NCBI GenBank assembly: GCA_021813905.1
Contig: JAKAJH010000027.1
Location: 1 to 43,094 of the forward strand
Reading direction: 5' to 3'
DNA length: 43,094 nucleotides
From: Bacteroidota bacterium
GTDB lineage: Bacteria > Bacteroidota > Ignavibacteria > UBA10030
The translations under genes were made by a program, and so were the position numbers. The notes beneath the pieces were generated by a model. That model did no database searches. It was not told the DNA's origin and worked only from the letters and a program-made list of their open reading frames with translations. Position 1 is the stretch's first letter. Each line of letters starts with the position of its first letter. This document shows, one piece after another, positions 12,183 through 22,072 of this stretch.

Positions 12183-12255
12183 CACGTCAGGAGGGACTCG
12201 AACCCCCAACCTGCGGTTTTGGAGACCGCTGCTCTACCAATTGAGCTACTGACGT
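12183..12255 (-). tRNA. trnW: tRNA-Trp (anticodon CCA)
   Basis: A 73-nt cloverleaf with acceptor stem ACGTCAG/CTGACGT, D arm GCTC...GAGC, anticodon loop CTCCAAA, T loop TTCGAGT and discriminator G. The 3' CCA is not encoded (the genome reads CAA after the discriminator). It lies 45 nt before secE, where tRNA-Trp is found in many bacteria. Confidence 0.97.
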
Positions 12256-12291
12256 ATGGTTCCGCGGTGCGCAGCGGAGCACCACCGCCGG

Positions 12292-12441
12292 TTACTTGGT
12301 CTCCTTGTGGGGCGTTCGCTTGTGGCACCAAGGACAGTACTTCTTGTACTCGACGCGGCCGCTCTGTTTCTTCTTGTTCTTCGTGGCCGAGTAGTTGCGG
12401 CGTTTGCAGGTGGTGCATTCCAGAGTAATAATGTCTCGCAT
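12292..12441 (-). CDS. rpmG: 50S ribosomal protein L33 (zinc-binding form)
   Basis: A small basic 49-residue protein of the large subunit. Four cysteines (C9, C12, C36, C39) in two CxxC pairs, LECTTC and YCPWCH, mark the zinc-dependent form. The sequence starts [17 protein letters not shown] and is complete. It sits between tRNA-Thr(GGU) and tRNA-Trp, exactly where tuf is found in many genomes with this tRNA cluster; rpmG beside secE is itself common. Identity is very sure. Confidence 0.96.
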
Positions 12442-12478
12442 CGTTCTGTTCCTTGTGCAACACGTTCTGTCTGAGTGC

Positions 12479-12554
<76 letters not shown>

Positions 12555-12625
12555 ACGCGGCCGGGGACGAATGACATCGCTCACCGCAATCCCCGAATCG
12601 TTCACTGCTCTCACATCGCACTGCG

Positions 12626-12698
12626 AGCGGGAGACGGGACTCGAACCCGCGACCAACAGCTTGGAAGGCTGTGACTCTACCAGCTGAGTTACTCCCGC
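12626..12698 (-). tRNA. trnG: tRNA-Gly (anticodon UCC)
   Basis: Acceptor stem GCGGGAG/CTCCCGC, anticodon loop CTTCCAA between ACAGC and GCTGT, T loop TTCGAGT, discriminator T. The CCA end is not encoded (CGC follows). Part of the conserved Thr-Tyr-Gly-Thr cluster. Confidence 0.97.
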
Positions 12699-12784
12699 AT
12701 GAACCGCTCGATGCGGCGTCGCGCAATCGCGGATCAGAATCACGAGCCGTGACCGCTCGCGCACCGCTGCATTTCATTTCCCTG

Positions 12785-12867
12785 TGGGCAGGGAAGGATT
12801 CGAACCTCCGAAGGCATGAGCCGTCAGATTTACAGTCTGATGCGTTTGACCGCTTCGCTACCTGCCC
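12785..12867 (-). tRNA. trnY: tRNA-Tyr (anticodon GUA)
   Basis: An 83-nt class II tRNA with a long variable arm, acceptor stem GGGCAGG/CCTGCCC, anticodon loop CTGTAAA between CAGA and TCTG, T loop TTCGAAT and discriminator A. CCA is not encoded. Confidence 0.97.
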
Positions 12868-12895
12868 GGTGTACCGCTGCTTCTGGTGGCGGCAG

Positions 12896-12968
12896 AGCTG
12901 GCGGTCGGACTTGAACCGACGACCTGCTGATTACAAGTCAGCTGCTCTACCAACTGAGCTACGCCAGC
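12896..12968 (-). tRNA. trnT: tRNA-Thr (anticodon UGU)
   Basis: Acceptor stem GCTGGCG/CGCCAGC, anticodon loop CTTGTAA between GCTGA and TCAGC, T loop TTCAAGT, discriminator T. CCA is not encoded. It is the first gene after the operon promoter, with a leader of about 140 nt. Confidence 0.97.
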
Positions 12969-18129: not shown

Positions 18130-19017
18130 ATGTCCACATCACAGACCATTTTCAAGCACATCGGGATCGTCGGCGCGGGCAGTACCGGAGCCGCACTTGC
18201 GCAAATGGCAGCGGTCGCCGGTGCGGACGTCCTCGTTTACGATATCAATGATACGGTCCTCCGCCGGGCGTTCGAGCGGATCAAGACGGACCTGCGCCGG
18301 CAAGTGCAGCAAAACGTCCTGACCGCCGATCAGATGTCGGCAATCCTCGGCCGTCTGCGCTCGCGAACCAGCGTGGCCGATCTCTCCCCCTGCGATCTTG
18401 TCATCGAAGCTGTTGTCGAGGATCTGCGGGTCAAGCGCGATCTGATGAAGCATCTGGATGCGAACACCAAGCCCGCAGCCGTTCTGGCGACCGCCAGTTC
18501 CGCTCTCTCTGTTTCCGCAGTGGGAAGCTTTGCCCGCTTCCCGGAACGCATCATCGGAATGCATTTCTTCCATCCGATCCAGTCCTCTCCCGTCGTCGAG
18601 GTGGCCCGCGGATCACGCACCAACGATCAGACGGTGCTTGCGGCCACGGATCTCGTCACGATGCTGGGCAAGCGGTCCATTCTGGTGAACGATTCGCCGG
18701 GATTCGTCGTCAACCGGGTCTCGTACCCGTACGCCGGCGAATCGCTGCAGATCGCCGGAGAGCGCATCGCGACCCCGGAGCAGATCGACCGGATCATGAA
18801 AGTTGTGGGCGGATACGAAGCCGGACCGTTCGAGACGATCGATCAGGAAGGCATTGACACGCATCTTGCCGCTGCACGAGGTCTTTCGGATCAATTCTTC
18901 GGCGATTCCCGGTATCGGCCTCATCCCCTGCTCCAGCAGATGGTGGACGCCGGCAAGCTCGGGAAGAAATCGGGATCCGGATTCGTCACTTCCGAGGCAA
19001 ACACGTCTCCCAAATGA
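18130..19017 (+). CDS. 3-hydroxyacyl-CoA (3-hydroxybutyryl-CoA) dehydrogenase family protein
   Basis: NAD(P)-dependent oxidation of 3-hydroxyacyl-CoA to 3-ketoacyl-CoA, or the reverse, in beta-oxidation or butanoate pathways. The 295-residue product has the normal stand-alone length. An N-terminal Rossmann domain shows GIVGAGSTGAAL near residue 12; the catalytic histidine region reads HFFHPIQSSPVVEV, with HP where HFFNP is usual; NDSPGFVVNRV begins the C-terminal dimerisation domain, which ends LGKKSGSGFV. It has no Shine-Dalgarno site and its promoter sits directly upstream. The last 4 nt overlap the next gene of the same family. Exact substrate cannot be told from sequence. Confidence 0.9.
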   Translation: MSTSQTIFKHIGIVGAGSTGAALAQMAAVAGADVLVYDINDTVLRRAFERIKTDLRRQVQQNVLTADQMSAILGRLRSRTSVADLSPCDLVIEAVVEDLRVKRDLMKHLDANTKPAAVLATASSALSVSAVGSFARFPERIIGMHFFHPIQSSPVVEVARGSRTNDQTVLAATDLVTMLGKRSILVNDSPGFVVNRVSYPYAGESLQIAGERIATPEQIDRIMKVVGGYEAGPFETIDQEGIDTHLAAARGLSDQFFGDSRYRPHPLLQQMVDAGKLGKKSGSGFVTSEANTSPK

Positions 19018-19811
19018 AGTCGAAGAAACCCGAAAAGAAGCCCGAAAAGCAGTCCCCCAAAGTGCCCGGCGCACCCCGGATCATCATTGTCGGTGAACAG
19101 TCGATGGTGGACGAGTTCGCGACAGTGTGTCTCAAGCACGGATACAGCTTTCAGCTGGCCTACAATGCTCCGCCGGAAACCAGGCCCTCATTTCCGACTT
19201 TCTCGTTGAAGACCGGGACCGCAGCGCTCCGTACGGCGTCAGTGGCAGTCGAACTGACAAACACAGACCGTGTGCTGAAACAGCAGAATCTGGAGCGGAT
19301 CTCGAAGGATCTCGCCCCGACGGCTGCAATCCTCTCGACGTCCGTGACGGTCTCCGCGACCGAGCAGACGCGCTGGATCCACGGAAAGCATCGGCTGGTC
19401 GGCATCGGTTATCTGCCCGGATTAGCGGACGCCGGGCTCCTGGAAGTCGCCCCGACGGTCTTCACCCCTCCCGCAACGCTTGAAGTCGTCAGCCGGTTTG
19501 TTGCATCGATTGGCAAGGCGGCGGAGATCGTGCAGGATGGTGTCGGCCTCGTCTTCCCGCGGGTGGCGTGTCAGATGATCAATGAAGCGGCCTTCGCCAT
19601 CGCTGAAGAGGTCGCGGAGCCGAAAGCGATCGACGAAGCTCTCATGCTCGCGCTCCGGCATCCTCGCGGACCGGTGGCGTGGGCGGAACGCTTCGGGCTG
19701 AGGCAGGTCATTGCCGTGCTCGAGGCCCTTCAGCGGGAATATGGCGGAGATCGGTATCGCATCGCGCCGCTGCTGCGTCAAATGGCGTATGCGGGAGAGT
19801 GGTGGAAATAG
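19014..19811 (+). CDS. Degenerate 3-hydroxyacyl-CoA dehydrogenase-like protein
   Basis: A 265-residue protein whose C-terminal third (PRVACQMINEAAFAIAEEVA, then IDEALMLALRHPRGPVAWA and ending RQMAYAGEWW) is a clear 3HCDH C-terminal domain. The N-terminal part keeps the expected strand and the family order, but the glycine-rich dinucleotide loop is replaced by IIIVGEQSMVDEF, and the HFFNP catalytic-histidine segment is also missing (HRLVGIGYLPGLADAG stands there). It begins with a Lys/Pro/Glu-rich stretch. The ATG overlaps the stop of the preceding dehydrogenase by 4 nt, so the two are made together. I infer a non-catalytic or altered partner subunit; a divergent active enzyme is not excluded. 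Confidence 0.7.
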   Translation: MKSKKPEKKPEKQSPKVPGAPRIIIVGEQSMVDEFATVCLKHGYSFQLAYNAPPETRPSFPTFSLKTGTAALRTASVAVELTNTDRVLKQQNLERISKDLAPTAAILSTSVTVSATEQTRWIHGKHRLVGIGYLPGLADAGLLEVAPTVFTPPATLEVVSRFVASIGKAAEIVQDGVGLVFPRVACQMINEAAFAIAEEVAEPKAIDEALMLALRHPRGPVAWAERFGLRQVIAVLEALQREYGGDRYRIAPLLRQMAYAGEWWK

Positions 19812-19829: not shown

Positions 19830-20516
19830 ATGTCCAGATTCCTGACGATCGTTGCGGCCGGTCTGACGCTCGCGTCCGTCGCCGTCGCCCAGCCGAAACT
19901 TTCAATCGATCCTCTCCAATTTGACCTCGGCGTCGTGTACAGCGGTGCGATCAAAGGAGGTCGGGTCACGCTGAAGAACGTCGGCAACAAGCCGCTCCGC
20001 ATTCTGAACATCCAGCCTTCCTGCGGATGCACGACGATCAAGCAACCCAAGGATACGCTGCTCCCCAACGAGTCCGATGTCGTCGAATTCCAGTTCAACT
20101 CGCTGGGATTCCACGGCCGGGTGGAGAAGAGTCTGTTCATCGCCTCCAACGACCCCAGCCTGCAGTATTTTGATGTCAAGATCTACGCCGATGTCCGCAG
20201 CGAGCTGGAGCCGTCGAGCCATTCAACGCTCACCTGGTTCGGCAGCGTTGCCGTGAACCAGACGAGCGCCCAGAACATCGTTTTCCACAATGCGTCGGGT
20301 CGGGTATTGCGCATCAAGGGCGTCGGCGCCACGGTCCCGTCGATCACAGTGAAGCCGAACAAAGACCGGATCGGCGCATCGGACTCCGTGACGGTGGCGG
20401 TGACGGTGCGACCCACACACGTGGGATATGCCAACGAGCGGATCTGGCTCGAGATCGACAGCAAGAGTCAGCCGCACGTGGATATGCGAGTTTCGTATAT
20501 CGGGATCAAGCCGTGA
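19830..20516 (+). CDS. DUF1573 exported protein with CGC motif
   Basis: A 228-residue protein with a signal peptide (about residues 1-20, ending VAVAQ) and two immunoglobulin-like beta-sandwich repeats. The DUF1573 core is visible as FDLGVVYSGAIKGGRVTLKN followed by IQPSCGCTTI, in which C65-G66-C67 is the family's conserved pair. GGAGG lies 8 nt before the ATG. The family is widespread in Bacteroidota and of unknown biochemical role. Its 3' end overlaps a rhodanese gene, and a MauE-like gene with another CGC follows, which suggests periplasmic thiol or sulfur chemistry (inference). Confidence 0.85.
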   Translation: MSRFLTIVAAGLTLASVAVAQPKLSIDPLQFDLGVVYSGAIKGGRVTLKNVGNKPLRILNIQPSCGCTTIKQPKDTLLPNESDVVEFQFNSLGFHGRVEKSLFIASNDPSLQYFDVKIYADVRSELEPSSHSTLTWFGSVAVNQTSAQNIVFHNASGRVLRIKGVGATVPSITVKPNKDRIGASDSVTVAVTVRPTHVGYANERIWLEIDSKSQPHVDMRVSYIGIKP

Positions 20517-20977
20517 TTCGACAGTCCATACGCGAGGCGGTTATCCTCATCCTCCTCGCCGTGGTCTTCGGCACTTCGTATACCTTTGTCACTCACCGCG
20601 GGTTGTTCGCCCCGCCCGCCAACGCAAGCTCCCGCCCTTCTCCGATCTCAACGATCGACGTTGCCGCTGCCAAACGTGGCTTTGACGCCGGCGCTGCGCT
20701 CTTCATCGATGCGCGCCATTCCTTCGAGTTCTCCCGCAGACATATCCCGCATGCCGTCAACATCCCTCTGGCGGATGCGGACGCGGCTATCTCCCGACTT
20801 GACAGCGTGAGCCGTGACCGGTACCTGATCGTGTACTGTGACGGAGCCGAGTGCAACTCCAGTATGGACGTGGGCGTGCGACTAATGCAAGCCGGCTTCA
20901 CGAACGTCCACGTGTTCTTCGGCGGATGGGAGGAATGGACGGGGAAAGGATATCCGACGGAGAGATCCGCGTCGTGA
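20513..20977 (+). CDS. Membrane-anchored rhodanese-like protein
   Basis: A 154-residue protein with one N-terminal membrane segment (AVILILLAVVFGTSYTFV) and a rhodanese domain facing the periplasm: FIDARHSFEFSRRHIPHAVN, the active-site loop YCDGAECNSS (C109 as the likely persulfide cysteine, C114 nearby) and GFTNVHVFFGGWEEW. Such domains move sulfane sulfur or act as phosphatase-like or redox sensors. The GTG start overlaps the DUF1573 stop by 4 nt, and its own stop overlaps the next GTG by 4 nt, so the three genes are translationally linked. Confidence 0.85.
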   Translation: MIRQSIREAVILILLAVVFGTSYTFVTHRGLFAPPANASSRPSPISTIDVAAAKRGFDAGAALFIDARHSFEFSRRHIPHAVNIPLADADAAISRLDSVSRDRYLIVYCDGAECNSSMDVGVRLMQAGFTNVHVFFGGWEEWTGKGYPTERSAS

Positions 20978-21444
20978 GAGCGCTCCTGCGTCATCGGCTG
21001 GTCGTCTTGCTCGTGCGCGTCTTTCTGGGCGGGCTGTTCGTCATCGCGGGTCTCGACAAGATCACGGATCCGGCGGGATTCGCGCAATCGATCCTGAACT
21101 ACCGGCTTCTCTCCCCCACCCTCGCGCTCGCGGCCGCGACCGTCATTCCGTGGATGGAACTGCTGTGCGGGCTCGGGCTCCTGTTGGGATTGTATCCGCG
21201 GGGCAGCTCGCTTCTCGCCGCCGGCATGCTGCTGATCTTCACCATTCTGGTCGGCGTCGCGATGGCCCGCGGGCTCGACATCGCCTGCGGCTGTTTCTCC
21301 CAGGACCCCGAGGTCGGCCGGATCGGCTGGATGAAGATCCTGGACAACACGGGGCTGTTCCTGCTGGGACTCATTTCGCTGTATGCCCGGCCGGAGGTTT
21401 CTCTCGTTGCCTGGCTGCGCCGGGACTCCGCCTCCACCACCTGA
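20974..21444 (+). CDS. MauE/DoxX-family membrane protein
   Basis: A 156-residue protein with four hydrophobic segments. FLGGLFVIAGLDKITDPAGF followed by LNYRLL, and IPWMELLCGLGLLLGLYPRG, are typical of the MauE/DoxX superfamily. A CGCF motif (C105, C107) lies between helices three and four and would face a redox partner. The open frame continues upstream, but GTG at 20974 is chosen for the 4-nt overlap with the rhodanese stop and the family length. MauE proteins are tied to disulfide or cofactor maturation in the periplasm, DoxX to sulfur oxidation. Together with DUF1573 and rhodanese it forms a compact thiol-related set (inference). Confidence 0.8.
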   Translation: MRALLRHRLVVLLVRVFLGGLFVIAGLDKITDPAGFAQSILNYRLLSPTLALAAATVIPWMELLCGLGLLLGLYPRGSSLLAAGMLLIFTILVGVAMARGLDIACGCFSQDPEVGRIGWMKILDNTGLFLLGLISLYARPEVSLVAWLRRDSASTT

Positions 21445-21454
21445 TCGGACCGCA

Positions 21455-22072
21455 ATGCTGACACTCGCCATCGACGCCGACATCACGCTTCGCATGCTTG
21501 AGATAGAGGACGCCGATGCGCTGTTCCGGCTCATCGACGAGAATCGCCGGCACTTGCGTGAGTGGCTCCCGTGGGTCGACTCCAACGCGACCATTGAGGA
21601 CACGCGGATGTTCATTCTGAGCGCGCACGAACAGCATACCGGGAATCTCGGGTTCCAGACCGGCGTCTGGTTCCGCGGGCAGATTGCCGGCGTCATCGGC
21701 TTCCACCGGATCGACTGGCAGAACCGCAACGTCGAGATCGGCTACTGGCTCGGCGCGGAATTTCAGGGACACGGCATCGTCACGAAAGCCTGCCGCCGGC
21801 TCGTGGACTACGCCTTCGACGAGTACCGGCTCAACCGGGTACAGATCCGCTGTGCGACTGAGAACAGGAAGAGTTGCGCCATCATCGAGCGTCTGGGATT
21901 CAATCGCGAAGGGCTCAACCGACAGGCCGAGTATTTGTACGACCACTACGTGGATCTCTACGTCTACGGAATGACCGCGGAGGAATGGAGATCGCGGTCG
22001 GGCGGCAATGCCGCCGCCAGGAAGAATGGGAGCCCGCATGGAAACAATTCCTCCCCCACCGAACGATCTTGA
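21455..22072 (+). CDS. GNAT-family N-acetyltransferase, RimJ/RimL type
   Basis: Acetyl-CoA-dependent N-acetylation; the RimL-like branch modifies ribosomal protein L7/L12 and related N-termini. The 205-residue product shows the branch hallmarks: ITLRMLEIEDADALFRLIDE at the start, LREWLPWVD, EIGYWLGAEFQGHGIVTKAC with the acetyl-CoA binding loop, and NRKSCAIIERLGF. The ATG at 21455 is chosen from the homologous N-terminus. The last 30 or so residues (Gly/Asn/Ser-rich) are not conserved and overlap the next gene by 35 nt, so the end may be drifting. Substrate is unknown. Confidence 0.88.
   Translation: MLTLAIDADITLRMLEIEDADALFRLIDENRRHLREWLPWVDSNATIEDTRMFILSAHEQHTGNLGFQTGVWFRGQIAGVIGFHRIDWQNRNVEIGYWLGAEFQGHGIVTKACRRLVDYAFDEYRLNRVQIRCATENRKSCAIIERLGFNREGLNRQAEYLYDHYVDLYVYGMTAEEWRSRSGGNAAARKNGSPHGNNSSPTERS

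Follow-up and report, generated by a model that had tools for sequence, protein, structure and literature searches.

A probable two-gene form of a PaaH-type 3-hydroxyacyl-CoA dehydrogenase with a non-catalytic partner in Ignavibacteria

Two overlapping genes of the 3HCDH family

The window analysed here, the whole 43,094-nucleotide stretch of contig JAKAJH010000027.1 from a Bacteroidota bacterium, carries two adjacent genes for 3-hydroxyacyl-CoA dehydrogenase (3HCDH) family proteins, which we call P1 and P2 (Table 1). The original prediction singled out the second frame and the homologous frame adjoining it; both are present and overlap by four bases, and their products are 25% identical across 201 residues. 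Of the translational coupling that was also proposed, the ATGA overlap itself is there, and it makes coupling of P2 to P1 likely. A scan for promoters and terminators around the pair gave nothing above shuffled sequences. Downstream of the pair (19830-22069) lie genes for DUF1573, rhodanese, MauE/DoxX and GNAT proteins, and related genes likewise follow the pair in many of the stretches compared. Since they do so also in stretches with paa-like genes, the DUF1573, rhodanese and MauE/DoxX genes give no clue to function. Elsewhere in the window, five tRNA genes are clustered on the minus strand (12183-12968).

Table 1. Features of the gene pair and its candidate neighbour, in window coordinates
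Feature	Coordinates	Strand	Description
P1	18130..19017	+	295 aa, presumed catalytic partner; corresponds to PaaH N-half; loop GAGSTG
P2	19014..19811	+	265 aa, non-catalytic partner; corresponds to PaaH C-half
ATGA start-stop overlap P2/P1	19014..19017	+	4 bases; P2 ATG 19014-19016, P1 TGA 19015-19017
DUF1573 gene	19830..20516	+	similarity cluster in 27/46 stretches; candidate neighbour

Both Pfam domains, 3HCDH_N and 3HCDH, match P1 almost over their full length (E 3.1e-49 and 2.6e-26). We number active-site positions on the human enzyme, for which Ser137, Glu170 and Asn208 are named in the titles of mutant structures; His158, and the exact residue counting, are what we take to be correct for that enzyme. 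As in the N-terminal half of PaaH, the window's P1 has the GxGxxG loop and all four catalytic residues, Ser, His, Glu and Asn, so that the earlier description of it as an intact homologue holds for the catalytic residues and the NAD loop. The description does not extend to the HFFNP motif, which reads HFFHP (the Asn161 position is His), nor to two further pocket positions, with Asn135 replaced by Ala and Lys167 by Pro. P1 ends in a GKKSGSGF tail that P2 lacks. In PaaH itself, the active-site residues are named as His142 and Glu154 in the available part of the structural report (PMC4498308).

P2 retains the 3HCDH C-terminal domain that was ascribed to it (residues 178-262, E 8.4e-15), while 3HCDH_N is matched in part only (residues 63-173, E 1.3e-6) within a degenerate Rossmann domain that spans approximately residues 21-173. 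In good agreement with the original prediction, the GxGxxG region reads VGEQSMVDEF and the HFFNP motif is absent, its position being occupied by GYLPG. These changes are shared by relatives. Among 41 aligned P2 sequences (the window's included, one truncated by its contig), none has the third loop glycine and 38 lack the second; the catalytic His position is G, A, C or S in 41/41, and Asn is replaced by P in 39 and by A in 2, whereas the active-site Glu is retained in every one. These counts cover 38 P1 and 41 P2 sequences, after removal of the duplicates L028, L032 and L033, a canonical Hbd (L045) and a frame-broken P1 (L013). Because the same positions are changed in 41/41 P2, the loss of the motifs does not reflect chance or decay, and a P2 with an intact cofactor loop, which would have spoken against a dead partner, was not seen among the 41. 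P2 also has a conserved signature of its own, roughly GESPMVEEY, SSSVTVTATEQ, ALPTL and VQDRVGMVLPRI, and residues including G7, E60, K69, Q98 and E124 are invariant in 31 P2 sequences.

Relationship to the two halves of PaaH

The best NCBIfam model for P1 is NF006124, that of the long, two-half PaaH-like family (305 bits, positions 5-287 of 507), ahead of the single-domain model PRK05808 (256 bits). P2 aligns to the C-terminal half of the same model (positions 328-500, 101.9 bits), where it is tied with PRK05808 (101.7 bits). As separate proteins both fall below the curated cut-offs of NF006124 (508, against 305 bits for P1 and 102 for P2) and of TIGR02279 (669, against 227 and 82 bits). In place of a single polypeptide of about 475-507 residues there are two open reading frames, of 295 and 265 residues, and the composition of the second half of PaaH, a dead Rossmann domain followed by a second 3HCDH C-terminal domain, is found in P2 as a separate chain. 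PF18321, which E. coli PaaH matches (E 7.2e-12), gave no match to P2 at E up to 1. It likewise matched none of 296 genomes of the phylum, but as it matched none of 14 control genomes either, this wider search is uninformative. When a profile built from P2 was aligned with nine natural fusions, it matched their C-terminal half (E 8.9e-49).

In a tree of 53 rows, one branch (SH-aLRT 100) sets apart the 25 rows of P2 and fused C-halves, the 25 rows of P1 and fused N-halves group together (SH-aLRT 99), and the three Hbd rows form a group of their own apart from P1 (SH-aLRT 98); P1 thus does not group with canonical single-domain Hbd. The 53 rows were taken from 124; near-copies are among those omitted, as are the long or gappy sequences of the Aminobacter pair and of both halves of fusions L182, L221 and L222. 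In a FastTree of all 124 rows, a branch with support 93 has 57 of the 58 P2 and fused-C rows on the same side, and 28/29 tandem P1, 18/18 unlinked candidates and 11/11 fused N-halves share one branch. One row labelled Hbd beforehand (L215 at 1432) falls inside the P1 clade, and another, L214, groups neither with Hbd nor with P1. The one row on the wrong side is the candidate P2 of Aminobacter, which has the longest end branch (3.16) and sits with P1; for this second gene of the adjacent Aminobacter pair the P1 profile gives 65 bits and the P2 profile 45 bits. As an observation in its own right, Aminobacter aminovorans plasmid pAA02 carries these two adjacent 3HCDH-family genes (L220:308-1833) within an acyl-CoA cluster, and approximately 2 kb onward another 3HCDH gene, annotated in two pieces that jointly match PaaH.

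P1 and P2 thus descend from the two halves of a PaaH-type enzyme. This bears on the simplest alternative, that P2 is a recent, decaying tandem duplicate of P1, as adjacency, homology and the loss of catalytic motifs in P2 might suggest. We consider this highly improbable: P2 frames stay open among genomes in which P2 is 32-55% identical to that of the window, and in ten close pairs dN/dS (YN00/NG86, where computable; one NG86 dS is undefined and some pairs have no YN00 value) is 0.03-0.24 for both genes and 0.06-0.23 for P2. A lineage-specific duplication was rejected in the tree as well, under the model used. Forcing Ignavibacteria P1 and P2 together costs 263 lnL units in the 53-row tree (p-AU 6e-52), and P2 groups with the C-halves of other phyla.

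The predicted structure of P2 (pLDDT 91.5, pTM 0.89) is a complete HAD fold, matching the human enzyme (1m75) over 245 residues with Z 26.0 at 2.4 A. Taken alone, P2 is no nearer to PaaH than to single-domain Hbd, in sequence as well as in fold: 9fbd scores 91.6 bits versus 89.9 bits for 3mog, the E. coli PaaH structure, and 3mog ranks 39th for the P2 model in Foldseek and is absent from the 50 structural matches listed. For L159, in which P1 and P2 are naturally fused, the model (pTM 0.82, with weak stretches at residues 79-97 and 372-420) matches E. coli PaaH over 458 residues with Z 38.5 at 2.0 A, and 1wdk over 378 residues with Z 34.1. Since the fusion matches PaaH end to end, the separate P1 and P2 would most likely form the same pseudo-dimer.

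Occurrence and genomic context of the pair

We searched 61 genomes, the window's own and 60 relatives. P2 is present in 41 (weakest E 3.6e-37); in the remaining 20 the best match is 1.8e-26 or weaker, and that of one P2-less genome, G050, when fetched proved to be a canonical Hbd. Co-occurrence had been set beforehand as the check on the predicted partnership, and it is complete: all 41 P2 genomes have P1, which in 39 lies on the same stretch as P2. In 38 of these P1 is an open frame (truncated by the contig end in L009), and in G026 it adjoins P2 with a broken frame; in G034 and G039 the two genes are on different contigs. The G026 P1 (L013 / L115) is split into two overlapping ORFs while its P2 is open, which may be assembly error or early loss. 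Two less complete genomes show parts of the arrangement: in G044 (62% complete) P1 adjoins a paaA-like gene and P2 was not found, and G019 (72% complete) has fragments only.

A frame change near the junction, of the kind seen within P1 of G026, could make a single fused gene look like two, and the split could then be an artefact of sequencing or assembly. We regard this as negligible in probability and rejected it: 38 genomes have two frames with P1 ahead of P2, a gap of 1.3-1.6 kb separates them in two (L047 and L048), and two more genomes have P1 and P2 on different contigs. In L136, on a contig as long as that of L048, a gene for an M1-family peptidase (L136:4169-5971), whose similarity cluster occurs in five stretches, stands between P1 and P2.

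Within the order, a P2 without P1, which would argue against a partnership, was not found with certainty; elsewhere the picture is less uniform. Unlinked P2 genes, 2/41 in the order, also occur in other classes and phyla; for loci L090-L109, which span about 1.5 kb on each side, 'unlinked' refers to the position of P1 in a genome search. Among 27 genomes inspected for a P1-type gene, 25 have one by tree or score: 18 have candidates placed on the tree, G076 and G130 carry tandem P1 rows, G252 contributes the mislabelled row, G347 duplicates G101, and G239, G200 and G318 were assigned by score alone. No clear P1 was found in the other two, the Chloroflexi-type MAGs G343 and G344. Among the best 80 of 532 loci in named genomes there are fusions in Chloroflexi and Actinobacteria, unlinked P2 genes, and tandem pairs outside the phylum in Methylomirabilota (L156), Deltaproteobacteria (L157), Anaerolineae (L161) and a 'bacterium' (L166); these genomes are partly the same as those of the 61-genome set, and the two sets of counts are not additive. 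The P2 profile matched 214 of 296 genomes of the phylum at E <= 1e-20, many of the matches being canonical Hbd, and we therefore make no claim about distribution from this search.

In relatives the pair has a paa-like context. Of 46 stretches compared, 18 have enoyl-CoA hydratase genes, 15 have a thiolase cluster and 4 have a PaaA_PaaC cluster. The neighbours sampled comprise PaaG-like hydratases (TIGR02280 being the best model for two), PaaF-like hydratases (PRK05862 fitting best and the PaaF model third) and one other hydratase, a thiolase whose best model is 3-oxoadipyl-CoA thiolase, and one PF05138 protein; their scores exceed the Pfam general cut-offs but not those of the equivalog models. 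In a paa-like operon of G053 (L224:4849-6015), a 389-residue fusion joins P1 directly to a second 3HCDH C-terminal domain and has no second Rossmann domain at all. That Rossmann domain is therefore dispensable there, which points to the second C-terminal domain as the needed part.

This observation has to be weighed against the possibility that P2 is a regulatory subunit, binding acyl-CoA or a nucleotide in its remaining cleft and tuning P1. A Rossmann domain that is nearly complete in the window's lineage, a signature conserved within P2 itself and an active-site Glu that has not been lost are more than bare dimerisation would need. Nevertheless, the domain that would do the regulating is absent from the G053 fusion and reduced in E. 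coli PaaH, and we consider regulation by P2 unlikely. A catalytically dead 3HCDH partner, the first of the two roles originally suggested, is the best reading, and the complete co-occurrence speaks in its favour.

The pair in genomes without detected PaaA/PaaC

Of the 61 genomes, 27 have PF05138 (PaaA/PaaC) matches; there is none in the window's genome, which is 100% complete. The 38 genomes with a readable P1 divide into 20 Paa-plus (15 with two PF05138 matches and five with one, that of G008 being a fragment) and 18 Paa-minus. Three changes of this label are needed on the tree, and a single clade (SH-aLRT 94) holds 16 of the 18 Paa-minus genomes, so that Paa-minus counts and pairs, here and below, are not independent. 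Asn135, Ser137, His158, Asn161, Glu170 and Asn208 are kept in 20/20 Paa-plus P1, whereas among the 18 Paa-minus P1 Asn135 is altered in 15 and Asn161 in 10; Lys167 is altered in 15/18 versus 2/20. Ser137, His158 or Asn208 is lost in 6/18 Paa-minus P1 (G002, G004, G005, G012, G028 and G049) versus 0/20 Paa-plus, all four catalytic residues being intact in the other 12, the window's among them. In P1 of L029 (G002), His is replaced by Arg and Asn by Glu, and in that of L044 (G049) His by Arg; both keep the NAD loop. The loop glycines and the following Asp are invariant across 33 aligned P1 sequences, including two without the catalytic His, which suggests that NAD binding by P1 is probably retained.

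The two genes also differ in how strongly they are conserved relative to each other: P1 is the more conserved partner in 169/171 Paa-plus pairs versus 58/136 Paa-minus pairs (36 of the 38 genomes; the truncated L009 and L035 were omitted). In the six Paa-minus pairs tried, dN/dS is 0.04-0.24 where computed, with many high dS values, which places both genes under purifying selection. Allowing for the fact that the relatives are MAGs, in which genes can be missed, the clade seems to have lost PaaA/PaaC and yet keeps the pair under purifying selection.

The best 3-oxoadipyl-CoA thiolase match in the window's genome reaches 346 bits, versus 508-625 bits in most Paa-plus relatives, which together with the lack of PaaA/PaaC matches makes a PaaH function unlikely in this genome. 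It has one clear thiolase, one Hbd (G000:C85) and two hydratases. Eight other Paa-minus genomes (94-99% complete), G002, G005 and six of the g9 genus (G009, G021, G024, G026, G028 and G030), have the pair as their only 3HCDH genes, with two matches each. In these eight the 3-oxoadipyl-CoA thiolase model is unmatched at E 1e-40, and Thiolase_N reaches at best E 7.3e-8, with no match in G021. The matches in the other seven exceed the Pfam cut-off of 26.4 bits where shown and cover less than half of the domain; because they are short and resemble a weak extra match seen in many other genomes, we read them as ketoacyl synthases. Each of the eight has one hydratase, for which, in three of them, general crotonase and gamma-carboxygeranoyl-CoA hydratase models are best, below cut-off.

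Might the Paa-minus pair, then, no longer be a beta-oxidation dehydrogenase, having kept NAD binding, and perhaps CoA binding, for another role? The loss of catalytic residues confined to Paa-minus P1, the relaxed conservation of P1 relative to P2, continued purifying selection on both genes, the invariant NAD loop and the eight genomes lacking a clear thiolase or any further 3HCDH gene would all fit such a change. However, two thirds of the Paa-minus P1, that of the window included, retain the full catalytic set, the counts come largely from a single clade of MAGs, and in seven of the eight genomes the weak thiolase matches exceed the general cut-off of Pfam. We hold a new role to be possible but lean against it. 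The more specific course of events, in which a two-subunit PaaH is becoming a double pseudoenzyme after loss of the pathway, with P1 giving up its active site as the NAD loop and P2 remain conserved, perhaps to serve as an NAD- and acyl-CoA-binding regulator, in some genomes lacking a clear thiolase and any other 3HCDH enzyme, we consider rather doubtful.

Proposed mechanism and relation to known systems

We propose that P1 and P2 are probably a PaaH-type dehydrogenase encoded by two overlapping genes, with P1 as the catalytic subunit and P2 as a pseudo-subunit in a heterodimer. P1 would bind NAD+ and the 3-hydroxyacyl-CoA and perform the oxidation, whereas P2, of the same fold but without the cofactor loop and the catalytic His and Asn, would contribute its 3HCDH C-terminal domain, packing against that of P1 as the halves of E. 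coli PaaH do. Judging from the fusions, the P1:P2 heterodimer would stand in for a single PaaH chain or for an Hbd homodimer. Where relatives have phenylacetate genes, 3-hydroxyadipyl-CoA is the probable substrate; the pair of the window's clade probably uses a different acyl-CoA, because PaaA/PaaC are gone and the P1 pocket is altered.

The original prediction held a dead partner of this kind to be undescribed, which is correct in part. A dead half is already known in fused form: according to the available parts of PMC4498308, neither the catalytic residues nor the NAD cleft are present in the second Rossmann domain of PaaH, and the chain mimics an HAD dimer, with the same domain picture in those of PMC9493321. 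What appears to be new is the two-gene form. The two-gene form was not found in the literature searched, which mostly excludes subscription journals, and it does not appear in the accessible portions of three papers that mention PaaH or paa genes (PMC9012183, PMC4782131 and PMC6157337). Separate genes make it possible to ask what the dead half of PaaH does, a question that is hard to address with the fused enzyme. Most worth following, and unexpected, is that the pair has been kept where its usual pathway is missing: the orphaned pairs, which in eight genomes are all the 3HCDH proteins found, raise a testable question about the role of a beta-oxidation fold.

Among known systems, E. coli PaaH (3MOG; TIGR02279, NF006124/PRK08268) is the closest in plan, sharing with the pair an active N-half, a dead C-half and two 3HCDH C-terminal domains. 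It differs in being one 475-residue chain instead of the product of two genes, in having a reduced second Rossmann domain (PF18321) where that of P2 is nearly complete, and in belonging to a family of the phenylacetate pathway, whereas PaaA/PaaC were not found in the window's genome. Single-domain Hbd/HAD enzymes (PRK05808; human HADH), homodimers of two active chains, resemble P1 in fold and catalytic residues but form a separate clade. FadB/FadJ and the MFE-1 alpha chains carry a second 3HCDH-like C-terminal part on the same chain, fused to a hydratase/isomerase, and match most of the L159 fusion model, as the 1wdk comparison indicates; they are not known to have a second Rossmann domain. 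Finally, inactive pseudoenzyme subunits in a beta-oxidation-like pathway have a precedent in BbsCD, the (alpha-hydroxybenzyl)succinyl-CoA dehydrogenase, going by a title cited in PMC10818641. BbsCD belongs to the short-chain dehydrogenase family and not to 3HCDH, and is thus a parallel to the P1-P2 pair rather than a relative of it.
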